This document shows, one piece after another, positions 3,159 to 34,979 of a stretch of DNA of 34,989 bases; the stretch's first letter is position 1; every line of letters begins with the position of its first letter. The notes under the pieces are model-generated. The model had not been told where the DNA came from, ran no database searches, and worked only from the letters and a program-made list of their open reading frames with translations. A program made the translations under genes and the position numbers. This DNA is from Candidatus Poribacteria bacterium. Lineage in GTDB: Bacteria; Poribacteria; WGA-4E; WGA-3G. The stretch is from contig VYCT01000071.1 in assembly GCA_009843785.1 (NCBI GenBank), positions 1 through 34,989 on the forward strand. Reading direction: 5' to 3'.

Positions 3159-3167
3159 GAGGAATAG

Positions 3168-3299
3168 TTGTCAGTCTTCAGAGGAATAGTTGTCAGTGGT
3201 CAGTTAAAGAGGTTTGCTGTGGCAGGTACAACAAAAGCAACTGCCGCAAGGTGACTCTTAACTGATAACTGATAACTGATGACCGATAACTGAAAACGA
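3168..3299. repeat. Dispersed palindromic repeat, copy 1
   Basis: Arms GTCAGTGGTCAGTTAAAGAG and CTCTTAACTGATAACTGAT face each other. The core also pairs: TGTGGCAG facing CTGCCGCA. The right arm ends 3 bases before the start codon at 3303, so the following gene has no visible ribosome binding site. Confidence 0.75.
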
Positions 3300-3302
3300 A
3301 TA

Positions 3303-5379: not shown

Positions 5380-5787
5380 ATGAAGTATTGGGTACCGCCG
5401 CTGCTGTATATGGCACTCATTTTTGCTGTCTCGTCCCTGAAGCAACCGCCACTTCCGATGCCAAAGTTCGAGTGGTTGACAATTGATAAACTTTACCATT
5501 TTATTGAATACGCAATACTCGGTATATTACTGGCGTGGGCGTTTGTGAAAGCGAAGCCTTCGGTTGTGCCATCAAAACTGATATGGATCATCGCAGCGGT
5601 GCTCTCAATTCTCTATGGTGCAAGCGATGAGTGGCATCAGACATTCGTCCCCGGTAGGGACGCTACCTTTGCAGATTGGATCGCAGACGTGCTTGGATCC
5701 ATCGCCGGAGTGCTGGCGGTCTATCTCTATTATAGGAGCCGTCAGCCGTCAGCCGTTAGCGGTCAGCAAAGAAAGAAACGTTCATGA
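5380..5787 (+). CDS. VanZ-like family membrane protein
   Basis: A 135-residue integral membrane protein with the VanZ pattern: an N-terminal membrane segment with FAVSSLKQP, DKLYHFIEYAILGILLAW, a third segment WIIAAVLSILYGASDEWHQTFVPGR, then DATFADWIADVLGSIAGVLAVYLY. The conserved E/D-W-HQ.F.PGR and D..AD..G motifs are intact. VanZ-family proteins are linked to teicoplanin resistance and cell-wall interactions in Gram-positives; elsewhere their role is unknown. The last 16 residues (beginning SRQPSAVS) are read from a palindromic repeat (5740-5829) and are unlikely to belong to the ancestral protein. The start overlaps the end of the preceding repeat and lacks an SD. Confidence 0.88.
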   Translation: MKYWVPPLLYMALIFAVSSLKQPPLPMPKFEWLTIDKLYHFIEYAILGILLAWAFVKAKPSVVPSKLIWIIAAVLSILYGASDEWHQTFVPGRDATFADWIADVLGSIAGVLAVYLYYRSRQPSAVSGQQRKKRS

Positions 5788-5829
5788 AACGCTTGCGTCT
5801 TTGCTGATGGCTGATAGCCGACAGCCAGT
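5740..5829. repeat. Dispersed palindromic repeat, copy 3, invading the VanZ 3' end
   Basis: GCCGTCAGCCGTCAGCCGTT...GTCAGCAAAG on the left faces CTTTGCTGATGGCTGATAGC on the right. It belongs to the same general family with a GCC-rich arm (CAGCCGTCAGCCGT). The left arm encodes the C-terminal residues of VanZ. Confidence 0.7.
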
Positions 5830-5847
5830 AGAAAAAAGGAATTCATA

Positions 5848-5931: not shown

Positions 5932-6723
5932 ATGCATCCACTTGTTGAATTGAAAGTACCGGAGGGTTCTATCGCTGTTCACTGGTTTGAACAGAGCAGC
6001 TTTGCTTTGAAAGACCCGGCTGGTACTATCGTCCAAATCGACCCTTATTTTCCGCGGGAACGTCCCGCTGATCGTTTTATTCATACCGAACCGCCACTCG
6101 ATGAATCGGCACTTCCAACCGATTTTGTGCTCTTGACACACGCACATGGAGATCACACCTGTCCAGAATCTATACGTCGGATGTGGGACACTTCCAATGC
6201 GACACAGTTTGTCGGACCCGAAGAGAGTGTACGTCAAATCTCAGCAGAAACAGATGTTGCAGCTGCGAACATCTCGGAGATTCGTGCCGGAGAATCCACA
6301 ACACTCAACGGTCTCACCGTACATGCCGTCTATGCGAAACCGCCTGATGGCGATGCATCCGCTGACATAGCACCCCCGGATGTTACGCATTTGGGATACG
6401 TGGTCGTCAGCAATGGCGTAGTGCTTTACTTCAGCGGCGATCCAATTAACAATTTCGCAGAACACGACGCACTCATTTCAGCGGTGGCAGCACATAAGCC
6501 GGACATCGGTTTCCTGACGAATCATCCGAGCGAGGGTGAATTTCCGTTCTACGATGGGTGCGTCAAAATGGCGACGCGGATCGGACTGAAGCACGCTGTT
6601 CCGGTGCATCGCGCCTGTTTCGTCACCCGGGATTATGACCCGAACGAGTGGGCAGCACAATTTCCGTCAGGCGGTCCCGAACCGTTGATTATTGAGAGAA
6701 ATTCACATATTATTTATGAGTAG
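5932..6723 (+). CDS. MBL-fold metallo-hydrolase (UlaG-like)
   Basis: A 263-residue metallo-beta-lactamase-fold hydrolase. The zinc motif HAHGDH is at 70-75, following a beta-strand start (VHWFEQSSFALKDPAGTIVQIDPYF). GDPI, NHPSEGEF and AVPVHRACF downstream fit the later metal-ligand region. The substrate-free look (no extra domains, no signal peptide) and the W..QS.F.L opening resemble UlaG/L-ascorbate-6-phosphate lactonase-like proteins, but the substrate cannot be told. AAGGA at 5915-5919 is 12 bases upstream, rather far. A broken copy of its first 14 codons lies 84 bases upstream. It is followed by a palindromic repeat and purE. Confidence 0.88.
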   Translation: MHPLVELKVPEGSIAVHWFEQSSFALKDPAGTIVQIDPYFPRERPADRFIHTEPPLDESALPTDFVLLTHAHGDHTCPESIRRMWDTSNATQFVGPEESVRQISAETDVAAANISEIRAGESTTLNGLTVHAVYAKPPDGDASADIAPPDVTHLGYVVVSNGVVLYFSGDPINNFAEHDALISAVAAHKPDIGFLTNHPSEGEFPFYDGCVKMATRIGLKHAVPVHRACFVTRDYDPNEWAAQFPSGGPEPLIIERNSHIIYE

Positions 6724-6815
6724 TTATCGGTTGTCAGTTGTCAGTTGTCGGTTAAGAGGTCTCTTGTAACCGACAACCGATAACTGAAAGATTTTTCGCA
6801 GAAAAATCGTACTGG
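6722..6815. repeat. Dispersed palindromic repeat, copy 4
   Basis: The left arm (TAGTTATCGGTTGTCAGTTG, then GTCGGTTAAGAGG) faces TCTTGTAACCGACAACCGAT. A side hairpin GATTTTT-CGCAG-AAAAATC follows at 6790-6808. About 60 bases match the reverse complement of the copy at 15407-15493 almost exactly. Confidence 0.85.
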
Positions 6816-6858
6816 TAACCATCCCTATGACAACTCTAAAAGAGGTACAGATACAGAT

Positions 6859-7398: not shown

Positions 7399-8082
7399 AT
7401 GGAAACCGAAATAACCAAACAGTGGGACAACGACACAGAACTGTTTGATATGATGGAAGAACAGTTATACGCCGCTGTGATTTCGGACGCACTTGACGCA
7501 GCGGGGTACCGCGAGCAGGCACTGCGACATACCATCCGTCCCCTTACTCCAACGACGGTTGTTGTCGGTCGCGCGATGCCTGTACTGTGCGTAGAGGTTT
7601 ACGAAATTCCAGATGAACCGTATCAGCAAGAGATTGCAGCCGTCGATAGCCTCAAACAGGATGACGTTCTCATCTGCTCAACAAACGGGAGTACCCGCAT
7701 CTGTTTCTGGGGAGAACTCCTCTCAACGGCGGCGCGTGCAAGAGGCGCGCGGGGCGCGGTCATTGAAGGGTTTATCCGGGATGCTCGCCAGATCCTCGCA
7801 ATGGGGTTCCCAATATTCACGACCGGATTGTCGCCTGTTGATTCAAATGGACGCGGCGATGTGGTGGCGTACAATGTTCCAATTGAATGTGGGGGTGTCA
7901 CCGTTAATCCCGGCGATATCGTGTTCGGCGATGCAGACGGGGTCGTTGTTATCCCACAAGCGGTGGAAACAACCGTGATTGAAGCCGCCTTGGCGAAGGT
8001 AAGCGGAGAGAATCGCACCCGCGACGAACTCCGCGCCGGCGCGACGCTGCGGGAAGTTTACGACAAATACGGGATTCTGTGA
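7399..8082 (+). CDS. RraA-like / HMG (CHA) aldolase family protein
   Basis: A 227-residue member of the RraA/MenG-like fold, which includes the RNase E inhibitor RraA and the 4-hydroxy-4-methyl-2-oxoglutarate aldolases. Visible signatures are AAVISDALDAAGYREQALRH near the start, WGELLSTAARARGARGAVIEGFIRD (R127-D128, the aldolase-type Arg-Asp pair) and PIECGGVTVNPGDIVFGDADGVVVIP (161-186). The extra N-terminal helix and the metal-site pattern favour an aldolase or decarboxylase role over RNase regulation, but this is inference. AGAGGT is 8 bases upstream. Such genes are abundant in sugar-acid-degrading environmental bacteria. Confidence 0.87.
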   Translation: METEITKQWDNDTELFDMMEEQLYAAVISDALDAAGYREQALRHTIRPLTPTTVVVGRAMPVLCVEVYEIPDEPYQQEIAAVDSLKQDDVLICSTNGSTRICFWGELLSTAARARGARGAVIEGFIRDARQILAMGFPIFTTGLSPVDSNGRGDVVAYNVPIECGGVTVNPGDIVFGDADGVVVIPQAVETTVIEAALAKVSGENRTRDELRAGATLREVYDKYGIL

Positions 8083-8270
8083 GGAATAGTCATCGGTTAT
8101 CGGTTTGCCTCGCAGTGAGAGTTATCGGAGAAATGGTTATCGGTTATCGGTACGCTTCGCTTTCGGTTATCAGTTAAAGAGGGCTCTGATTCATCAAATC
8201 TCTCTTTAACCGAGTACCGAAAGGTTTTTCGCAGAAAAACCGTACTGAAAACCGAAAACTATTACAAAGG
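8083..8270. repeat. Dispersed palindromic repeat, copy 5 (compound)
   Basis: Several arms are stacked: GTCATCGGTTATCGG, TTTGCCTCGCAGTGAGAG (8104-8121, shared with 21323-21340 and 22055-22072), AGTTAAAGAGGGCTC facing CTCTCTTTAACCGAG, and a side hairpin GGTTTTT-CGCAG-AAAAACC at 8223-8241. Confidence 0.8.
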
Positions 8271-8675: not shown

Positions 8676-11600
8676 TTATCGTAAAATCGCGAGTTTTCCG
8701 ACCTGCTCTATTTTTCCATTTTCGGTATCGGCAATGACGCGATAGAAATATACACCGTTGGCACACCGCACGCCTGCTTCATCTCTGCAATCCCAACCGG
8801 TTTCGTTGGTCCCACGGTTCGCACTCACATCGTCAAGCGTTTTGAGGAGTCTGCCGTTAACACTATAAATTTTGATGGTAACCGCGTCGGGGGACTGGGC
8901 AAGGTGATAGGTGAAAAAAGTCTTCCCCCCAAATGTCCGATCCACAGGATTCGGGACATTGAACACTTCACTGAGTGTGACTTTTTCATTTAAGGTAAAG
9001 GTCGTAACGAACTCTGCTATGTTCTCGCTGGTGTCCGCCGCAGTAATCTGGAGTTGATATTCCCCGTTAGCGAGGTCCGGCGCATAGGTAATCTCGGCGT
9101 TCGCGGGAGTAGCTGGATCAAAGGTTTGCGTGTAATTGCTCACATCTAACGGCTCAAGTGCCTCATACAGACTGCCAAAATTGAATCGAAAAGTGGTTTC
9201 GTCAAGGGCACTATCATCGGTGAGGGTAATCTTGAAGCGGGGTTGTTCTGTGAGCACTGCACCATCTGTCAAAGGTTCATCAAGCATTTCGTCTGTGCTC
9301 GCACGGACTTGAATGTCAATCGTCGGTGGCGCGATATCTGGGGCTTCAATCACAAAAAACCTGTAACTGATCATACCCTCATCACCGCCAATAGTGTTCC
9401 CGTTGAAATCTTGTGCGCGAATGTTGAAAGTATACTCGCCCGGGAAGAGGATCGGTCGATAATCAATCGGAACAGTTTGAATCCCCCCTTGTGTGCGGAG
9501 TTCGTAGTCGGTAATAGTTTCAAAGGGACCCCCATCTTTTTGCTTCTCAAAAGCAAAGAATTCTGTATCAATACCGTTGGGATCTTGCAGCAGAATAGAC
9601 ATAGCAGGGCGCGGCGCAATGACACTACCGGTCTGCGGTTGAAGACCATCTACCCAGAGGTTAAAAGTGGGGGGTTCGCTATCGGTGCTGCGCATGAGCG
9701 CAAACCGTGTGAGTTCAGTGACTTCCGTTGTGATGGTCGCGACGCGCGCCGTACTGAATTTAATCTTATCGCCAAACCCAAATTCTTCGGAACTTGCAGT
9801 AACAAGCACTTCAAAACCGAGATGGCTCAGGAAAATCGGTTCGTTGATCTTCCCGCGTATTTTGACACCATTCGGATGATAGGAAGGTTCGTTAGAGGTA
9901 TCACGGAGTTCGTAATAATTCGGATCGGTAAAGAAAAGAAACCAGTCGCCTGTCTCAAACTCCGCCTTGGGCCCAAGTCTACTCACTACCGTTGCATTGC
10001 CGTTACCGAGATTAGCGTTCCATGTGCGCGTAAGGACGACATCACCTTGCGGGTCACGGTCGGTTTCAAAAGCGAGTATATCGCCAAATTCAAAGGCGTA
10101 ATTAACATCAAGAGATGGATTCTCTTGCCGTGGAATCCGTAACTCTAAACCGTACGCCTCCTCTCTAAACGGATTGTCAAGTTGCCCTGTCTTATCAAGT
10201 TTTTGGTTCTGTGTTAACCCCTTCGGCTTCAGAAATACCTCGTATTCGTTGGCATCAAGAAAAATGATAACCCAAGTGCCTGGCGGCGTGAGGTTTGGGT
10301 TGATACTGATAGCATCCGTTTCTAATTTCTGTTGGCTCGCATTTTCCATCTGTACGGGCGTAACATAATTTTCGAGCAGAAAAGAATCGAGAACGCGTGT
10401 TTCTGATTTTTCTATCGGTGTCGCGTTCTCGGTTCTGCCTTCAGGGGTGTAGTTAATTTTCGATGGCAACCGTCGCCATGCTGACAAGCTAACATTCGCT
10501 TCCTGAGTAGCGGGCTCCGATTGTGAATCTGTGGAAGTCGCGCGATCTTCGTGAGTGCGCGGTTCCGTTCGCGCGACATTTGCCTGCCACGCATAAATTG
10601 CTAACTGGTTCGTGACCTCCGCGAATTCATGTTCAAATGTGGGATTGTCAGGTTGAATACTTTTTTCCTCGCGCACGATGTCTTCCAAAGCACTCACATC
10701 AAAACGGAGTTTGATCTCCGCAGGTTTCGCGAGTGCTGACGCGCCCGTGCGAAATGCAGCCTCGTAGGATTGCGCAACCGCCCTACCTTGCCGAATGAGA
10801 CCCCGCCGGAGCGCAGCGACACGCGGAATCGGCGCAAAGTGCAGGTCAGGTTGTGTCGGATCCATCGGTGATTGGGATGTAACGGCGAGGGGGATACCTG
10901 TCGTATTCTGTGTTTGGGTTTCAAGCGCATTTGGTGGGAAATGGATGTCAAACACCCTATCTAAACTAAAGGCGGGTAACGCCTCCTGTCTATAGATAAA
11001 ATCGTTGACGATAAAAGAGACGTGCAGCTTGTTGTCATGGTTACGCGCTTCATCGAGATTTCCATAGATTTTGTCTTCAATACTCGGGTCGTCCGGGTCG
11101 ACCATCGCATAAACTTTGTGGACACCTGTCTCAAGCGGGATCTTGAGGTCTAAGATAGCCGTCGCGCGTTGCCAGACGTACGTCCCCTCCACCCAATCCG
11201 TGGCTTTCACGACTACGGTCCCAAGAATGTCCGCATCTGCGTCAACGATATAATCCCCATCAGCATCAGGGTTTCCTGCAGCGAATACAACCTCAATATC
11301 CACCAACACTGGACGAAGCCCATTATTGATTAATTCGGCCACGAGTTGGTAAGCGTTTTTCTTCTCATCAAAAGCATATCGGATCGGTGCCCTATCTACT
11401 TCGTCAGTCCCAATTGCAAGGTTGGGGCCCTCAGGGACCCTAACGATGTTGCGTTCGTCTTTTGATGGAATAATGACCGCGTGTCCCGTACTATCGGTAA
11501 TGTGAATTTGGTAACGTATCTGCAGTCCACCTTTCGGGAGTGGAATAGGAGTTTGAAGCTCATACCATTGTCCACCCTGTGGCACATCACCAAGCGGTGC

Positions 11601-14600
11601 GTGTGCTGGTACCATAGGCGTGGTTACGTCGTCCATAAGAAGACCGGATCCGGAAGTATTATCCCATAAAACGCTTATACTTCGTATGCCGGCGGGGCCT
11701 TTGTCATCAAGGACAAGGACACTGATACTCAAGGTATCTGTGACCTTCGTATCAAGCGTTTCACGGATGTCCTGCACGACAGGCGTATCTACCCAGAATC
11801 GGGTTCCACCGACAGCAGCATAGGTGTCATCATAAGCAAAAATACGGGCGATACCACCGCCGGGGAGGGCGTTGTTGGGAACATCAATCCGAACAGTGCC
11901 ATATTCTCCTTGCCAGACGTTGCCACCGACGCGCTGTGTGATATCATTGCGAAGATTATCGTCAAAATTATTTGCAAAGACCGCGATGGCAGAAAATGTG
12001 TCTGTGCTAAAATCAGAGGCGCGCGTGAAACTGACGCCCCCAGTACCCTCAATGCCCGAATTTCGGAGCACGCCTATCTCGTTCGCCTTCATCACAATTT
12101 TATGTGTGTCATTGAGTGCAATGCGTTCCAATTCCACGTTTACATCAAGTTGCGGACGCGCAAGGCGAGATGCCGGATCACCAAAAAGTGTATAGGATTC
12201 GGTTCCAGGAATCCAATCTGTGCTCCGAATCCGGTTGAGAAAACTGATTTTGGCATCAGCCACAATATATCCTATCGTTGGCTGTAAAGGGATACTTTTA
12301 GTTCCCGCCAATTCAGGAGATTCGTGAACAACACGAAAAAGAGCTTCAAAGAGATCTATATCAAATTCAGCATTTGCTCGTCCGAAAGTGAGCCGTGTCG
12401 CCGAGAGTGCCGCAATAGCACCGGACTTTCCCAACAGAAACTGTTCACTGAGGCAGAAGTTTCCAGCCTGTTGTGGCTTATCAAACTGTCCATTGAGACA
12501 GGTCGTTGTGATAACAAAGGGGAGGTGTCGGTTCCGCAAACCGGCGGCATCCTCAATACGAAAAATAGACTCATCAGCCCAGGTCTGGCTGCCACCGTGG
12601 CCCGCGTATTCAATGGCGAGCGCGCCTTTATTGATAGCAGCGAGAATTTTTCGGCGTGTGTCGTTAGGGCTGCCAATTTTTCGGAGGTAGATTTCACGAG
12701 TGTCATATCCGGGCGGGATAACCTCTTGTATCAGCTCGTCGCGTGAGTCCTCAAAGATACCGTCGTTGGGTTTGTCTGTATGGTCGTCTGCTACCTGAAT
12801 TAATGTGCCTTGCCACACCCCGATCTTCGGATTTTTTTCATAGTCAATAATCTTTTCAACCATGGTTGTGAGGGCTTCAGACGTTTGCACCGAGAGCCTA
12901 CCAATTAGCATATCCGGCAACGGATCATCGCCACTGATGTTGACAAAACGCTGGTCCATAGAGGTTTCACCGCTCGCAGGTGCCCATCCATGGTACGTCG
13001 GTACGAAGTTTGGATAGATGCCCCGAAACGTCGGATCTCGGCGGTAGATTTCATCAGTGGCGCCCTTGTAATCGTAGTGTGCATCCCCAATAAGGAGCAC
13101 ATAGGTAGGTGCCGGTTGTTGATAGTTGTGATAAGCATACCGTAGGAATTTCTGGATCGCAAAAGGGTTGAAGAGACCATCGCTAAATTCATTGTAGATG
13201 TCGTCAATATCAACAACCATAGTTGTTAAACCTTGCGAACGCCGGAATTCGACGAGCGGAAGTATGCTCTCAGCAAAGGTCGAGTGTGTAATGACGATAT
13301 AGTCCACTCGATTAGCAGGGTTCCTTAACGGTGTCGGTGGTGTCGGGACGAGCGCGTTAATACTTTTATAGCTGCTACGACTTATTGCAAAATAGCGTTT
13401 ATGCTGGTTGACTGTATCCTCAAATAAAATCCGATGACTCGCCCCCCTTGGCGTGACTTTACCGCCAGTGAGTCTGCTTGTAATACCATTTTCATCCAAC
13501 GCATATACGTCTATTGTTTCGTTAAAGAAGTTTCCAACTCGGTACTGAACTTGACCGCGGTTGAGCGGTTCAGTATTGGTATTAAATTCAAGGCGATTGG
13601 ACTCCGCTTGAAAGTCCCGCCAATACTCGAGCTCATACCAGTCGAGGTAGAAATCGTAAGACCCTGGTGGCGTATCGTTATCATCAAATGCCTCAATGCG
13701 CATATAGTTCGTTGTATTGTGGAAGATGAGATTCTCGTCATCCTTTTCGATGTCGCGGGTTACGGTATGCGGAGCTTGACGTTTCCACTCCGCATCCCTT
13801 CCAAGTCTGTGGTTATTAAAAGTAATGCGTGCGACGTGACGCGCACTCCCCCTCCGAGAGACACCCTGGAATCTGATACGCAAAGTAGCCGTGCCATCAA
13901 CTTGAAGCCGCGGTAGTGCCCCCGGAATGTCTTCAGGGTATATAGGAAAATCTTTTCCTCGCGTTCCGATGTCCCCACCGCGGAAGGCAACGCCGAAATA
14001 GTGGTCTGCCAGTTCAGACTTAACATCAGTGCCATCTAAGGCGTCATGATGTCTATTCTCCTCAAAGCGAACACGCGTTAAAAAAGCTTTGGGCGATACT
14101 AAGTTCGGTGTTTTCGGTGTTCCATCCTGTTCTGTCACACGGGATGCCTCAAGACCCACAGCCTGTTCTCCGCGTAAACCAAAACGGAGCCAGTAGACGT
14201 TTTCATCGGTAAATTTGTTGTCTGCTAATGCCCGGCCATAAAAGACAATCTGCTCGCCAGGGTCAAACGTATTGTTCTCGTTTTCATCGAAAATATAGAC
14301 ACCTTGCTTCCTACCACTGCTCTCCAATCGAAGTGTATCAAGGTCTATCGTCTCCGGTTCTATACCGGTATGCGCCCTAATGTTGTTATAGGTAATACGA
14401 TACATATCTGTCTTAATGACAGGGATTTTAAAACGGCGCGTGCTCGCATTGATGAGCGACGGTGCCCCCGCCGCGTGATTTCCATCCGTAATACCATAAG
14501 GACCCCGGCGTTGTTTGCGCCACAGTTTTGACTGCTCGTAGTTTCGCAATGTACCTTGGAACAGGTCCTCAAAAACACGCGGGGATTCTCGAACAGAAAA

Positions 14601-15254
14601 GGATGCTGTAGGAGCAGCACTACCAATAACCGCCCCTGGAAAATGCACTCGGAACGTCACAGACGGAAATATTTTTAATTGCTGCGTCGCCTGATTGTAT
14701 TGCACCGGGTTAATCTGCAAACTGCCGATGCGCTGATCTCGCACAAAGCCACCAGGGATAACCTCTACAAGCTGCGTCGGATAGAACTTGGTGGAAGCCC
14801 GGGGGGTACCATCGGAAGCCAGCGTAGGAAAAACCGGATCGTCAGGCGTGATACCCACATTTTCGATTGTCTTTATCTCCGAACGCGCTTGAATGATCGT
14901 AACAACCGGCGTTCCCACGACAGGGATGCCAATGCGTTGTGTGTAAATGGGCAGACGCGGTTTGCCTATGTCAAGCGTCCGATCCGCGCCTGCAAAACGA
15001 ATATCCGTTTCCACACCTCCGGATTCACCGTCAGTAGCGGAAGTCCGTGTCGTTATCTTAAGTGCTGGCAGGGTGAAACGTGCTGTGAGGGTGTCCGCTG
15101 TAGTTGCAAGAATCTGAAGCGGTGGTGCCGCGTCTTCAGTAACAGGCAGAGAACCTGACTGTGTCTGACCTACAGCAACCAGCATCGGAACAGTTGAAAG
15201 TGTAAGGATTATGAGTAAAAAAATAAATGTCTTTTTCATAGGGTTATAGGTCAT
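8676..15254 (-). CDS. Giant C25 (gingipain/PorU-like) peptidase with C-terminal FlgD-like domain
   Basis: A 2192-residue exported protein. A signal peptide starts at M1 or, more convincingly, at M6 (MKKTFIFLLIILTLS, ATG at 15239); neither has a clear SD. After an N-terminal beta-rich region comes a C25 cysteine-peptidase domain at about 650-1020: VDYIVITHS, YVLLIGDAHYDYKG, the catalytic His886 in EYAGHGGSQTW and Cys919 in TTTCLNGQFD. A CARDB-like segment (about 1290-1420) and long beta-rich regions follow. The last 90 residues form a FlgD-like/type A sorting-like domain (FNVPNPV, IKIYSVNGRLLKTL, GVYFYRV, GKLAILR). PorU is the sortase of the type IX secretion system and is normally about 1100-1300 residues, so this copy is unusually long. 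No other T9SS gene is in view. Confidence 0.85.
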   Translation of the reverse strand: MTYNPMKKTFIFLLIILTLSTVPMLVAVGQTQSGSLPVTEDAAPPLQILATTADTLTARFTLPALKITTRTSATDGESGGVETDIRFAGADRTLDIGKPRLPIYTQRIGIPVVGTPVVTIIQARSEIKTIENVGITPDDPVFPTLASDGTPRASTKFYPTQLVEVIPGGFVRDQRIGSLQINPVQYNQATQQLKIFPSVTFRVHFPGAVIGSAAPTASFSVRESPRVFEDLFQGTLRNYEQSKLWRKQRRGPYGITDGNHAAGAPSLINASTRRFKIPVIKTDMYRITYNNIRAHTGIEPETIDLDTLRLESSGRKQGVYIFDENENNTFDPGEQIVFYGRALADNKFTDENVYWLRFGLRGEQAVGLEASRVTEQDGTPKTPNLVSPKAFLTRVRFEENRHHDALDGTDVKSELADHYFGVAFRGGDIGTRGKDFPIYPEDIPGALPRLQVDGTATLRIRFQGVSRRGSARHVARITFNNHRLGRDAEWKRQAPHTVTRDIEKDDENLIFHNTTNYMRIEAFDDNDTPPGSYDFYLDWYELEYWRDFQAESNRLEFNTNTEPLNRGQVQYRVGNFFNETIDVYALDENGITSRLTGGKVTPRGASHRILFEDTVNQHKRYFAISRSSYKSINALVPTPPTPLRNPANRVDYIVITHSTFAESILPLVEFRRSQGLTTMVVDIDDIYNEFSDGLFNPFAIQKFLRYAYHNYQQPAPTYVLLIGDAHYDYKGATDEIYRRDPTFRGIYPNFVPTYHGWAPASGETSMDQRFVNISGDDPLPDMLIGRLSVQTSEALTTMVEKIIDYEKNPKIGVWQGTLIQVADDHTDKPNDGIFEDSRDELIQEVIPPGYDTREIYLRKIGSPNDTRRKILAAINKGALAIEYAGHGGSQTWADESIFRIEDAAGLRNRHLPFVITTTCLNGQFDKPQQAGNFCLSEQFLLGKSGAIAALSATRLTFGRANAEFDIDLFEALFRVVHESPELAGTKSIPLQPTIGYIVADAKISFLNRIRSTDWIPGTESYTLFGDPASRLARPQLDVNVELERIALNDTHKIVMKANEIGVLRNSGIEGTGGVSFTRASDFSTDTFSAIAVFANNFDDNLRNDITQRVGGNVWQGEYGTVRIDVPNNALPGGGIARIFAYDDTYAAVGGTRFWVDTPVVQDIRETLDTKVTDTLSISVLVLDDKGPAGIRSISVLWDNTSGSGLLMDDVTTPMVPAHAPLGDVPQGGQWYELQTPIPLPKGGLQIRYQIHITDSTGHAVIIPSKDERNIVRVPEGPNLAIGTDEVDRAPIRYAFDEKKNAYQLVAELINNGLRPVLVDIEVVFAAGNPDADGDYIVDADADILGTVVVKATDWVEGTYVWQRATAILDLKIPLETGVHKVYAMVDPDDPSIEDKIYGNLDEARNHDNKLHVSFIVNDFIYRQEALPAFSLDRVFDIHFPPNALETQTQNTTGIPLAVTSQSPMDPTQPDLHFAPIPRVAALRRGLIRQGRAVAQSYEAAFRTGASALAKPAEIKLRFDVSALEDIVREEKSIQPDNPTFEHEFAEVTNQLAIYAWQANVARTEPRTHEDRATSTDSQSEPATQEANVSLSAWRRLPSKINYTPEGRTENATPIEKSETRVLDSFLLENYVTPVQMENASQQKLETDAISINPNLTPPGTWVIIFLDANEYEVFLKPKGLTQNQKLDKTGQLDNPFREEAYGLELRIPRQENPSLDVNYAFEFGDILAFETDRDPQGDVVLTRTWNANLGNGNATVVSRLGPKAEFETGDWFLFFTDPNYYELRDTSNEPSYHPNGVKIRGKINEPIFLSHLGFEVLVTASSEEFGFGDKIKFSTARVATITTEVTELTRFALMRSTDSEPPTFNLWVDGLQPQTGSVIAPRPAMSILLQDPNGIDTEFFAFEKQKDGGPFETITDYELRTQGGIQTVPIDYRPILFPGEYTFNIRAQDFNGNTIGGDEGMISYRFFVIEAPDIAPPTIDIQVRASTDEMLDEPLTDGAVLTEQPRFKITLTDDSALDETTFRFNFGSLYEALEPLDVSNYTQTFDPATPANAEITYAPDLANGEYQLQITAADTSENIAEFVTTFTLNEKVTLSEVFNVPNPVDRTFGGKTFFTYHLAQSPDAVTIKIYSVNGRLLKTLDDVSANRGTNETGWDCRDEAGVRCANGVYFYRVIADTENGKIEQVGKLAILR

Positions 15255-15302: not shown

Positions 15303-15406
15303 ACTTATAGACCGCAGCAAAAACGGTCCGCCTCCGCTGGCAAGTTTTTTTAACTTTGTTGCTTTACACTGTCTTTTTAATTTTAAAATCTACCATAAAT
15401 AGTTAT

Positions 15407-15493
15407 CAGTACGATTTTTCTGCGAAAAATCTTTCAGTTATCGGTTGTCAGTTACAAGAGACCTCTTAACCGATAACCGACAACCGATAACCA
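15407..15493. repeat. Dispersed palindromic repeat, copy 6, supplying the PdxA 3' end
   Basis: This is the near-exact reverse complement of copy 4 (6722-6815), including the side hairpin GATTTTT-CTGCG-AAAAATC at 15413-15431. On the minus strand it encodes the last residues of PdxA, including its stop codon. Confidence 0.85.
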
Positions 15494-16679
15494 TTGCTGC
15501 AACAAGGCTACTCTCACTCGCGATACCTTTACCGGCTATGTCAAACGCTGTGCCGTGGTCTACACTGGTGCGGATGATCGGTAACCCTAAGGTGACATTT
15601 ACAAGTTTTCCAAAGCCGAGAAGTTTTATCGGAATATTACCTTGGTCGTGATACATAGCGATAACGGCGTGCCACTTCCCTTGATTTGCTTTGACAAAAA
15701 GCGCATCGGCCGGCAGAGGACCGTCTATCGTACCCTTTTGTGTCTCTACCTGTGCAATGGCCGGACGGATAAAATGTACCTCCTCTTCTCCGAACAGACC
15801 ATCTTCACCGGCGTGGGGGTTCAGCCCCGCAACGACCAATCGAGGCTCAGAAATGCCACAGCGGATTAACACCTCTTGCGTGATCCGAATAACATTTACG
15901 ATTCTTGGAATAGAGAGGTGTTTCGGAACGTCAGCCAACGCGATATGATTTGTCACGAAAGTGACTGCTGGGATGACTGATGGCGTCGGAAGCACGCCGT
16001 CACGATGAGCGTGATCGCGTGACTTCCGAGGATGGCTATCCAATGCTTCAGGTGTACAGAGCATCATCACAACATCAGGTGTGTGAGTGAATGCAGCAAG
16101 CATCTCTGTGTGTCCTGAATAAGGGAACCCCGCCCGGTTTATAGCTGCTTTGCATATTGGAGCAGTCGTGATTGCATCAAGTTCACCACGCATCGCCAGC
16201 TCTGTAGCGACCTCAATCGCTTTAACAGCAGCAGCACCAGCACGCACATCTATAGTACCACGGCAAATCTCCTCAGGCGATATTGAAGAGCTATCAAGCA
16301 CGTCAATTGTCCCGTGCGTCGCGCTTGCTTGCATCGGTGTCTTGATGATATTAAATTTTAACGGAGGGGCACCGGGAGATATGAATTGACAAGCATCCTC
16401 AAGGATAGCAGGACTCCCGATAACAATCGGTTGGCACATTGAATATACGCTTTTGTGTGCAAGTGCCTTAATAATGATCTCAGGACCGATGCCAGCTGCA
16501 TCCCCCATCGTTAGTCCAATCTTGGGTCTATTTGTGGTATGCTGCGCTTTGGCACTCGGTTCTCGGTTATCGGAAACCATCAGCGGCTCATCTGTGGCGG
16601 GAGTAAACGTTTTATCGGTTTCCACAAGGGAACCCTGACAGCTGACAGCTGACGGCTGACGGCTAATATCGCGAGTCAT
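15438..16679 (-). CDS. pdxA: 4-hydroxythreonine-4-phosphate dehydrogenase PdxA, repeat-extended at both ends
   Basis: PdxA oxidises 4-phosphohydroxy-L-threonine in the DXP-dependent vitamin B6 pathway. The conserved core starts at about residue 50 with RPKIGLTMGDAAGIGPEI and includes SGHTEMLAAFTHT (metal histidine), NPHAGEDGLFGEEE, MYHDQGNIPIKLLGF and GLPIIRTSVDHGTAFDIAGKG. This copy is 413 residues against about 330 normally. The extra N-terminus (MTRDISRQPSAVSCQ..., then VSDNREPSAK) and the end (GCRLSVKRSLVTDNR) are read from palindromic repeats. The upstream start is supported by AAGGGAG at 16691-16697, 11 bases before the ATG, so the extension may really be translated. M34 is an alternative start. 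GDAAGIG replaces the usual GDPAGIG. Confidence 0.93.
   Translation of the reverse strand: MTRDISRQPSAVSCQGSLVETDKTFTPATDEPLMVSDNREPSAKAQHTTNRPKIGLTMGDAAGIGPEIIIKALAHKSVYSMCQPIVIGSPAILEDACQFISPGAPPLKFNIIKTPMQASATHGTIDVLDSSSISPEEICRGTIDVRAGAAAVKAIEVATELAMRGELDAITTAPICKAAINRAGFPYSGHTEMLAAFTHTPDVVMMLCTPEALDSHPRKSRDHAHRDGVLPTPSVIPAVTFVTNHIALADVPKHLSIPRIVNVIRITQEVLIRCGISEPRLVVAGLNPHAGEDGLFGEEEVHFIRPAIAQVETQKGTIDGPLPADALFVKANQGKWHAVIAMYHDQGNIPIKLLGFGKLVNVTLGLPIIRTSVDHGTAFDIAGKGIASESSLVAAMVIGCRLSVKRSLVTDNR
16553..16673. repeat. Repeat units inside the 5' part of pdxA
   Basis: GGTTCTCGGTTATCGG (near 16559) and CTGACAGCTGACAGCTGACG (near 16637) are units of the dispersed repeat family. They lie in frame between the SD-supported PdxA start and its conserved core. 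Confidence 0.65.
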
Positions 16680-16690
16680 TGCAATTTTTT

Positions 16691-16697
16691 CTCCCTT
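16691..16697 (-). promoter_or_regulatory. Shine-Dalgarno for the extended PdxA start
   Basis: AAGGGAG on the minus strand, 11 bases upstream of ATG 16679. It favours initiation before the repeat-derived extension rather than at an internal methionine. Confidence 0.5.
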
Positions 16698-21258: not shown

Positions 21259-21281
21259 TGAGGTTCTCCTTTTTTAGGGGT

Positions 21282-21405
21282 CATCAGTGGTCGGTTCGGT
21301 TTTTCTGCGAAGAACCTTTCAGTTTGCCTCGCAGTGAGAGTTAAGAGCGGAACTTGATATATAAAGTCTTTCTCTTAACCAACAACCGACAACCGATAAC
21401 TATTC
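21282..21405. repeat. Dispersed palindromic repeat, copy 8
   Basis: It contains the side hairpin GGTTTTT-CTGCG-AAGAACC (21298-21316), the TTTGCCTCGCAGTGAGAG block (21323-21340), a core with GGAACTTGATATATAAAG, and right arms CTCTTAACCAACAACC and GACAACCGATAACTA. The core is the inverse of that in the next copy. Confidence 0.8.
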
Positions 21406-22011: not shown

Positions 22012-22203
22012 TAGCTGTCGGCTGTCAGTACAATTTTTTTCAAAAATCTTTCAGTTTGCCTCGCAGTGAGAGTCTTAACCATCGACTCGTACCTTAACAT
22101 TTATAACGGAGTCGAGTTGATGGTTAAAGTTAGGAGAAAGGCTTTATATATCAAGTTCCCCTCTTAACCGACAGCCGACAGCCGACAGCCGATGGCTATT
22201 CTT
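22012..22203. repeat. Dispersed palindromic repeat, copy 9, with an extra long hairpin
   Basis: It carries the TTTGCCTCGCAGTGAGAG block (22055-22072), then a 15-bp stem TTAACCATCGACTCG (22075-22089) facing CGAGTTGATGGTTAA (22113-22127) with one G-T pair and a 23-base loop, then a core GGCTTTATATATCAAGTTCC inverted relative to copy 8, then arms CCGACAGCCGACAGCC. It lies between tig and clpP and may affect processing of the transcript. Confidence 0.8.
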
Positions 22204-28013: not shown

Positions 28014-28862
28014 TTACTCATCATTGTCCTCATTGTTGTCCTTAGGTGGTATGATATCGTCAATATTCACATCCTTGAATGGAATGCCATCGGCTTTTGC
28101 CTTTTGGTGCCTTTTGAGGAGACGCTTTCCTATCTCATCTTCGGGATCAAGATGGACAACTGCTTCAAGATAGTTGAGGTATTCATCGTCTGTTATAGGT
28201 TGGCCGAGAAGCCATTTTAGATCATAATCGACAATAATATGAACTTGTGGGATATCACCATGTTCTTGGATGAGTCGTTCACGTTCACGTTCTGCCCACA
28301 ACTGCGGATTTTCCGTTTGGAGTTGATCATTTTTTGATTGAGGAGAGAGTTCTGGCGTATTTTTTTGCCGGTTTCGAGCATTTTCAAGGGTGCGCCGCGT
28401 GACATTGCTGGGCCAAAGGTGGAGTTGTGCCTCAAGAAAGGCAATGTATTCATCTATAGGGACTCGAGTTATTCCCATGGGAACTTTCAGATGCCACTCT
28501 GCGACGGTGTGAACCTGCGGGATATCGCCAAACTGTTTAACGAGTTGGGCGCGTAAGTATTCGGCGCGTAAAATAGGGTCTTCTGTGGTATACCAGTCTG
28601 GTGGAATTTTTCTTTTCCCGGTGCTGAGTTCGTCTCGGAAAATTTTGGCACGCAGCCGGACAGCTTCCATCTCTTGGGTACTTAGATTCGTTTCATAGGT
28701 AGTGGGCGTAGGATCCCAACTCGGGTAGCTTTCCGTCTCTCCTGCGATAAAATCCAACGGTGTTACTGTTTCAGGTGAGTCCTCCGTGCTTCCGCAGCCG
28801 GTCAAGAGGAAAAAACTGAGAAGGCATAGAAAATAAAAAAAGGAAATCAAAGTCTTTTTCAT
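28014..28862 (-). CDS. Lipoprotein with two copies of an unrecognised domain
   Basis: A 282-residue predicted lipoprotein: signal peptide MKKTLISFFYFLCLLSFFLL with lipobox LTGC (Cys23), so it should be membrane-anchored outside the cytoplasm. It contains two copies of a motif of about 65-75 residues, at roughly 88-162 and 188-255: (R/E)..L...(F/H)GDIPQVH....(E/D)(W/Y)(H/D)LK, then (D)EY(I/L)..LEA..HL.P. The tail is acidic. The start overlaps the stop of the upstream gene by ATGA, with GAGGTG 8 bases before the ATG, so translation is coupled. The upstream gene carries the same domain, nearly identical at DNA level. I do not recognise the family; function unknown. Confidence 0.75.
   Translation of the reverse strand: MKKTLISFFYFLCLLSFFLLTGCGSTEDSPETVTPLDFIAGETESYPSWDPTPTTYETNLSTQEMEAVRLRAKIFRDELSTGKRKIPPDWYTTEDPILRAEYLRAQLVKQFGDIPQVHTVAEWHLKVPMGITRVPIDEYIAFLEAQLHLWPSNVTRRTLENARNRQKNTPELSPQSKNDQLQTENPQLWAERERERLIQEHGDIPQVHIIVDYDLKWLLGQPITDDEYLNYLEAVVHLDPEDEIGKRLLKRHQKAKADGIPFKDVNIDDIIPPKDNNEDNDE
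28485..28605. repeat. 121-bp direct repeat, copy A (lipoprotein gene)
   Basis: It matches 29024-29144 at offset 539 with 5 mismatches by my count. It encodes the first part of the shared domain, ending (on the minus strand) at the tryptophan-histidine-leucine-lysine motif. Confidence 0.88.
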
Positions 28863-29544
28863 TTTAAATTCACCTCAGACACCATTTTGACGTGCACACC
28901 GGCCGCTTTGAGTTTTTGGTTACGCTCAAGTGTGCTGCGTGTTGCTGCGCTCGGCCAAAGATGGAGTTGTGCTTGGAGAAATTCGATGTATTCCTCATGT
29001 GTGGGAGGAGTTTCTTGTCTCATTTTCAGATGCCACTCTGCGACGGTGTGAACCTGCGGGATATCGCCAAACTGTTTGACGAGTTGGGCGCGTAGGTATT
29101 CGGCGCGTAAAATCGGGTCTTCTGTGGTATGCCAGTTTGGTGGAGGGTATGTCTGATTCGTATTTTCGATAGTGTCTTTGGTCACTTCACGCTCTGGATG
29201 AGGTTGTTCCCATGGATCGGTCTTAGAACGGGTGGAATCAAACGTAGCATTGTCTCGCCAGTCTTGTCTGTCATCTGTTGTAGTCGATTCTGCTTTCTGG
29301 GAACGCAGTTCGACACTATGTGGATCATCACCTCTATGGCTGTGGTCATGTTGCACAGAGGCACTATTTTTTTCGGGATTAGCTTCTATCGTAGCACGAG
29401 CTTGGGGTTTGGTATCGCTACCTTATAGATTTTCACGTTTTGTGGGTTTTCTGCTTTTAGTCTTAGGAATAGGAGGCTCCCACCAAGCCCAAAAACAACA
29501 AGCATTGTGAGTACCCAGTGCCATTTTCGTTTTAGGAATTCCAT
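28859..29544 (-). pseudogene. Membrane protein gene with the shared domain, split by a -1 frameshift
   Basis: The N-terminal part starts at ATG 29544 (AAGGTG 8 bases upstream): MEFLKRKWHW, one membrane helix (VLTMLVVFGLGGSLLFLRL), then KIYKVAIPNPK, and stops at TAG 29386. The coherent continuation lies in the -1 frame from about 29403 (ARATIEANPEK..) through a Ser/Thr/Asp/His-rich linker to the domain shared with the next lipoprotein, ending at 28859. A GTG at 29356 could restart it but would lose the membrane anchor and has no SD. The switch is at a CCCC-AAG stretch (29401-29407). It may be a mutation, a sequencing error or real frameshifting. Joined product about 228 residues. Function unknown. 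Confidence 0.7.
29024..29144. repeat. 121-bp direct repeat, copy B (membrane protein gene)
   Basis: Partner of 28485-28605. The near identity over a limited patch, with diverged flanks, points to recent duplication or gene conversion. Confidence 0.88.
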
Positions 29545-34899: not shown

Positions 34900-34979
34900 T
34901 TTAGTCCCGTAGGGACGATATGTTTATAGAAAAACGTTGAATACCGTATCTTTAGTCCCGTAGGGACGATATGTTTATA
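34900..34979. repeat. Two direct copies of a 29-bp repeat at the window edge
   Basis: Identical copies at 34900-34928 and 34951-34979, separated by a 22-base unrelated spacer. Each contains the palindrome GTCCCGTAGGGAC followed by GATATGTTTATA. More copies may lie beyond the window. The regular layout resembles a repeat-spacer array, but two copies and a 22-base spacer are too little to call CRISPR. Confidence 0.85.

Follow-up and report, generated by a model that had tools for sequence, protein, structure and literature searches.

The window analysed here, a 34,989-nucleotide contig, comes from a sponge-associated Candidatus Poribacteria bacterium whose genome (G000) is a 6.17-Mb MAG of 391 contigs. 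It carries a pdxA gene whose 413-codon frame reads MTRDISRQPSAVSCQ...VSDNREPSAK...SVKRSLVTDNR up to the stop codon. The conserved core, placed from about residue 50 in the initial annotation, was recovered by the TIGR00557 match, and fold comparison showed that the predicted fold matches PdxA structures. As listed in Table 1, three stretches of this protein are repeat-derived: the leader (residues ~4-46), an internal loop within the core (residues ~213-238), which had been missed earlier, and residues 396-413 together with the stop codon. The junctions read DISRQPSAVSCQ at the leader, residues 209-240 around the loop, and ..SLVTDNR at the C-terminus. In the AlphaFold model, pLDDT fell below 50 at residues 1-48, 219-230 (half of the loop) and 407-413; the model, built from 24 sequences, is of modest quality (mean pLDDT 72.7), and parts of the core scored low too. 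Next to pdxA, at 8676-15254, lies a gene for a PorU-like protein of 2192 aa that carries a C-terminal T9SS sorting domain.

Table 1. Features of the window discussed in the text, with related positions on other contigs
Feature	Position	Strand	Remarks
pdxA CDS	15438..16679	-	413 aa; TIGR00557 346 bits, aa 53-399; PF04166; PDB relatives 4jqp, 1ps6 (sequence and fold)
Shine-Dalgarno AAGGGAG	16691..16697	-	11 nt before ATG; same region before same ATG in repeat-free G015/G021 and in G006/G011
Repeat-derived leader middle, aa ~4-46	16542..16670	-	five-congener leader alignment; weak hairpin, z -1.2
Heptamer array encoding SRQPSAVS	16640..16664	-	
Internal repeat-derived PdxA loop, aa 213-238	15966..16043	-	absent from 4jqp and outgroups L070, L072, L076; other element versions in congeners
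Hairpin CGGAAGCACGCCGTCACG / CGTGATCGCGTGACTTCCG in PdxA loop	15987..16028	.	fold z -4.1; other copies L267, L128
Complete heptamer-armed element at pdxA 3' end	15398..15495	.	gives aa 396-413 (18 codons) and stop; z -8.6, 0/200 shuffles as stable
Element at 3' end of VanZ-like gene	5732..5830	.	encodes last residues RSRQPSAVSGQQRKKRS; same element in G014
Intergenic element	6718..6822	.	first bases form TAG stop of upstream gene
Intergenic element before ilvD	3159..3300	.	element-free 39-nt spacer in G011, G006
Intergenic elements between RraA-like and NIPSNAP genes	8081..8268	.	26-nt spacer in G032
Element between clpX and clpP	21271..21405	.	end forms clpP TAG stop; 22-nt spacer in G011
TAG-stop coincidences	6722, 21400; L084, L102, L120, L121, L122, L126, L137		

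The elements share a common layout, in which a left end, AAT-AGTTATC-RGTTRTC-RGTTRTC-RGTTAAGAGG, is followed by a variable core and then by the inverse of that end. They span roughly 50-170 bp (median ~109 bp), and their inverted arms are made of variant heptamers (RGTTRTC, TAACTGA family). A 940-kb sample was surveyed, partly picked from repeat-bearing contigs and with genes called by a home-made finder; here the arrays typically held 3-4 heptamers between an outer end AAT-AGTTATC and an inner end AGTTAAGAGG. The tandem heptamers of the TAACTGA family are present as RGTTRTC arrays. Their units are not identical direct repeats of one heptamer: several positions vary from unit to unit, and inverted pairs are formed. 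An 18-mer heptamer pattern matched 299 times in the 6.17-Mb genome and never in the reversed control; the 940-kb sample gave 122 arrays versus 7 in its reversed control, and complete inverted pairs (terminal inverted repeats) numbered 37 as against none in the reversed sequence. The repeats are not a product of chance. Four elements gave hairpin z values of -8.6, -5.8, -4.5 and -6.3, compared with -1.2 for the copy in the PdxA leader. A further palindrome (AACCATCAACTCG...GAGTTGATGGTT or similar) is nested in heptamer elements, for instance at ~22075-22130 of the window and in the TlyA insert of G011, the one case within a coding copy.

Matches at E up to 1e-6 were obtained in 33 of the 38 genomes of the genus. 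Single weak matches were found in 2 of 21 genomes of sister genera and in 1 of 14 other members of the order. To judge from these matches, the elements are nearly confined to one genus of Poribacteria. A heptamer array was found near none of the seven Y1 transposase genes checked, and RAYT-driven REP mobilisation was therefore rejected. No autonomous transposon flanked by the arms was recognised either: 11 genes in the 940-kb sample have inward-facing arms, and none of them looked transposase-like by eye. No clean target-site duplication was readable in the carA, nadB, tlyA and intergenic comparisons, because one end of an element is often retained at the short sites (GATAGTCA in G032; AATAGCCAT in the TlyA gene of G013); such sites may be deletions instead of empty sites. 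A different, TTTAGTCCYGTARGGACGRTATGTTTATA-like repeat flanks one Y1 gene. Repeats resembling TTTAGTCC(C/T)GTA(G/A)GGACG(A/G)TATGTTTATA lie at 34900-34979 of the window and at L128 4310-5110; these also flank a Y1 transposase gene and are probably that transposase's own REP.

Most arrays lie between genes. In the sample, 96 of 122 (79%) were intergenic, compared with 11.6% under random placement, while 18 touched 3' ends, 4 touched 5' ends and 4 were internal. A stricter scan found 10 in-gene overlaps, versus none in the reversed control. Stops in all six frames were present in 27 of the 34 complete non-coding or edge elements, and of the matches to a 37-position profile of the element-encoded peptide, many that lie outside long ORFs contain stops as well. 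Since no frame is free of stops in most copies (the GATAAC arm contributes TAA), they would be tolerated mainly between genes or at gene ends. Nine genes owe their TAG stop to the outer end of an element, which coincides with it exactly (GAA-TAG-TTATC; Table 1); this could reflect either a target preference or an effect of tolerance. Such a location, with the majority of copies intergenic and many adjoining start or stop codons, is what would be expected if the arrays were regulatory sites, for example for an S1- or CsrA-like protein, selected at gene boundaries and only accidentally coding; a regulatory role has been proposed for TAACTGA (MacGregor 2015, PMC4679880). In seven relatives, however, the corresponding spacers carry other elements or lack them, which is unlike conserved regulation, and the boundary position may just mark where insertion is harmless. 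Regulation is thus an unlikely, though not negligible, explanation. The same comparison suggests that elements turn over quickly in intergenic spacers, because equivalent spacers differ so freely between relatives. Elsewhere in the window, neighbouring small genes contain two copies of one 121-bp stretch that agree at 96% (28485-28605 and 29024-29144).

The element peptide, with the consensus NSxQxSVISxQL...SLTDNRKxKTDNY, was found in frame in unrelated enzymes. Complete in-frame elements occupy the interdomain linker of CarA and a linker of NadB, and a further copy occupies a loop of TlyA. On solved structures, these copies map to the interdomain region of CarA, to a part of NadB that follows the FAD-binding portion and to a loop of TlyA. 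The CarA linker is short and element-free in G022, G025 and G016, and that of NadB is element-free in G005, G011 and G014 among others. The TlyA loop was studied across 25 congeners, and the order-level outgroups G056, G058 and G060 have only a short turn. With NadB as the query, the CarA inserts of G018, G021 and G001 were recovered, with the element peptide as the sole link. Several sites matched the profile on both strands, as expected of a near-palindrome. Long stop-free ORFs with profile matches included TlyA-like, PBP1C-like, PorU-like protease and beta-propeller proteins, among others; except for CarA, NadB and TlyA, these protein names are our reading of the sequence. In the carA linkers of G006, G011, G021 and G000, the heptamer 'dialect' varies by species with both arms changing together, as would happen if one arm had been copied from the other or whole elements had been replaced.

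Repeats also encode protein ends, such as the HisC-like ..NRQPTTEN and the VanZ-like tail. The octapeptide SRQPSAVS had been described as the end of the VanZ-like protein; in fact eight more residues (GQQRKKRS) come after it. This tail starts element-free and lysine-rich in G005, G021, G015, G011 and G006. In PdxA, heptamer arrays at 16640-16664 and 15468-15492 underlie SRQPSAVS and the C-terminus, which bears out the earlier view that both are repeat-encoded. The element at the pdxA 3' end is 93% complementary to the intergenic element at 6718-6822 (15399-15492 versus 6729-6822). The C-terminus SLVAAMVIGCRLSVKRSLVTDNR occurred in G000 only, and close relatives instead end in SLVAALNCASRLAN or similar. 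Hence the C-terminal replacement is private to G000 among the genomes compared. G013 PdxA has a separate repeat-like tail, RNSSQQSAGSSQ.

As for the internal loop, congeners fill the same position with differing versions of the element, for example DSNQPSAISSQQKDLFTEGFREPRVIPA in G010. The repeat search found no ungapped inverted repeat in the loop, and folding gave a hairpin with an offset. This hairpin belongs to a second short family (GGAAGTCACGCGATCACG...), of which copies were seen in PdxA (15987-16028) and, at L267 ~1863 and L128 4118-4160, in the PBP1C-like ORF and in an intergenic position. Weaker likenesses were noted at position 10533 of the window, within the PorU-like gene, and at L102 7379, within a 1213-aa gene.

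The history of the leader was reconstructed by comparing pdxA across ~37 congeners. A good Shine-Dalgarno sequence had been reported at the far-upstream ATG, and AAGGGAG was indeed found there; both it and the ATG are ancestral, since congeners without the repeat have them: in G015 and G021 the ATG and Shine-Dalgarno region are the same, followed by a 32-codon leader (MTRTETQIQSEVTAFRNPRPLMRGET..QHT). Related leaders (M[TI]R.E.QIQ.E or similar) are widespread in the genus; in the family's other genera, PdxA begins directly at MLPRIGITMG. The start codon is ancestral, as are the MTR residues at the very beginning of the leader. The middle of the leader has been replaced by in-frame repeat sequence in G006 (153 nt), G011 (156 nt) and G000 (147 nt). 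G005, nested in the clade of these three, has no leader, and its Shine-Dalgarno region now precedes TTG-CAT-AGC-CCC-AAG; the grouping of G006 with the other three clade members had moderate support in the pdxA tree (93/73). At this deletion (L003, pdxA 5' end), AAGGGAG stands six bases ahead of the in-frame TTG, which suggests a TTG start for the G005 gene. Because repeat-free congeners have the leader and G005 has lost it, the repeat entered a leader that was already present and dispensable, and did not create it. The copy itself is probably old and decayed, as its weak hairpin (z -1.2) implies, and its identity is based on heptamer remnants.

The initial annotation had suggested that repeats are recruited as protein ends. 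The observation behind this idea was confirmed, and proved more extensive than first seen: both ends of PdxA are indeed repeat-encoded. The N-terminal extension, however, is not a creation of the repeat, as the leader of G015 and G021 indicates. In favour of ends that are functional and under selection stand the repeat-encoded ends themselves: in PdxA the C-terminus and a portion of the N-terminus, in VanZ the tail, and a few more cases, among them the HisC-like protein. No sign of selection for the tails was found: G005 lacks the leader with its gene intact, and the G000 tail is private to one genome. Between G000 and G011, leader substitutions by codon position numbered 15, 16 and 15, versus 19, 5 and 44 in the core; the leader therefore has no third-position excess, as expected under weak constraint. 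Nor are ends special: in PdxA, CarA, NadB and TlyA, repeats also occupy loops or linkers inside the protein. We thus consider functional recruitment improbable.

A mis-called start, with translation beginning beside the core and the leader left untranslated, is judged very improbable. An in-frame ATG at codon 34 of the window gene and the outgroup start at MLPRIGITMG would suit it. This ATG is, however, missing from G011 and G006, in which the stretch from the far-upstream start to the core TMGD contains no ATG at all, and a start at codon 34 was therefore rejected. Besides, the Shine-Dalgarno sequence and ATG are conserved without repeats, and the leaders of five species (147, 156, 153, 96 and 96 nt) are all open multiples of three with the other two frames closed. 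An assembly or binning artefact, conceivable for a MAG in so many contigs, can be practically dismissed, because in-frame copies, traversed by open frames, are present in independent assemblies, among which G005 and G010 are single contigs.

Taken together, these are very probably short palindromic elements, abundant in one genus, that have been inserted in frame in tolerant sites and are read as similar low-complexity peptides, with PdxA having taken three. Copies with a stop-free frame that land in frame in a leader, a C-terminus, an interdomain linker or a surface loop would persist, and those retained would be read as a similar low-complexity peptide irrespective of the host protein. For PdxA, the gene tree shows the order of events: an ancestral leader, replacement of most of it by the repeat in the clade of G006, G011 and G000, and then loss of the whole leader in the sister species G005. 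Translation of the element segments is suggested by the conserved start site, the frame and the absence of stops, mobility by presence and absence between congeners, and we infer that the peptides are nearly neutral. We think that they are mostly tolerated passengers. It is also conceivable, if rather unlikely, that the element is adapted to translation: since the element is nearly palindromic, its stop-free frame would give much the same flexible, polar peptide whichever strand is read, so that insertion into linkers and loops would do little harm. Elements replacing one another at the same sites, as at the CarA linker, TlyA loop, PdxA loop and PdxA leader, would then continually supply new protein segments genus-wide.

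No description of such repeats in Poribacteria was found in the literature searched. In behaviour, the closest functional parallel is the Rickettsia palindromic elements (Ogata 2000, 2002, as reviewed in PMC10969869), which are short, palindromic, inserted in frame in many unrelated genes with a similar peptide, and also intergenic; the title of Ogata 2002, as cited in that review, calls protein-coding palindromes unique to Rickettsia. Both kinds are hairpin-capable, sit in frame in unrelated genes that have element-free orthologues, encode a similar peptide and have intergenic copies too. The Poribacteria element differs in its heptamer-array arms, its phylum, the dominance of non-coding copies and the lack of any autonomous partner found; the likeness is one of behaviour alone, and membership is not claimed. 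The closest sequence parallel is the TAACTGA repeats of Beggiatoaceae, Cyanobacteria and Bacteroidetes, which are mainly direct with one inverted case and for which S1- or CsrA-like binding was proposed in Beggiatoaceae (MacGregor 2015, PMC4679880). Shared features are the heptamer family (reverse translation LSVISYQ versus SYQSSVISGQL), the mostly intergenic location, the all-frame stops in one orientation and the rare ORF copies mostly at protein ends. In contrast, the heptamers here come in several dialects, RGTTRTC among them, and are arranged as pairs of inverted arms that enclose a core; complete elements of this kind sit within housekeeping enzymes. The element is not filed under TAACTGA, because its arrays are not direct repeats of a single heptamer. 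REP/REPIN sequences moved by RAYT (Y1) transposases are likewise short intergenic palindromes in many copies, but no heptamer array lay near any Y1 gene. MITEs with coding potential (ERIC, Coxiella QMITE1; review PMC10969869) are also short with inverted-repeat ends and may fuse with host ORFs, whereas neither a parental IS nor a target-site duplication was identified for the Poribacteria element.

Rickettsia-like behaviour is thus seen in Poribacteria with a different, TAACTGA-related element, and repeatedly so at identical sites in different species. TAACTGA heptamers are widespread and unexplained. With dozens of genomes open to comparison, it becomes testable how selfish DNA becomes protein, which peptides enzymes tolerate and what moves the heptamer repeats. 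Meanwhile, annotators of this genus are warned that such tails and loops are repeat-derived.
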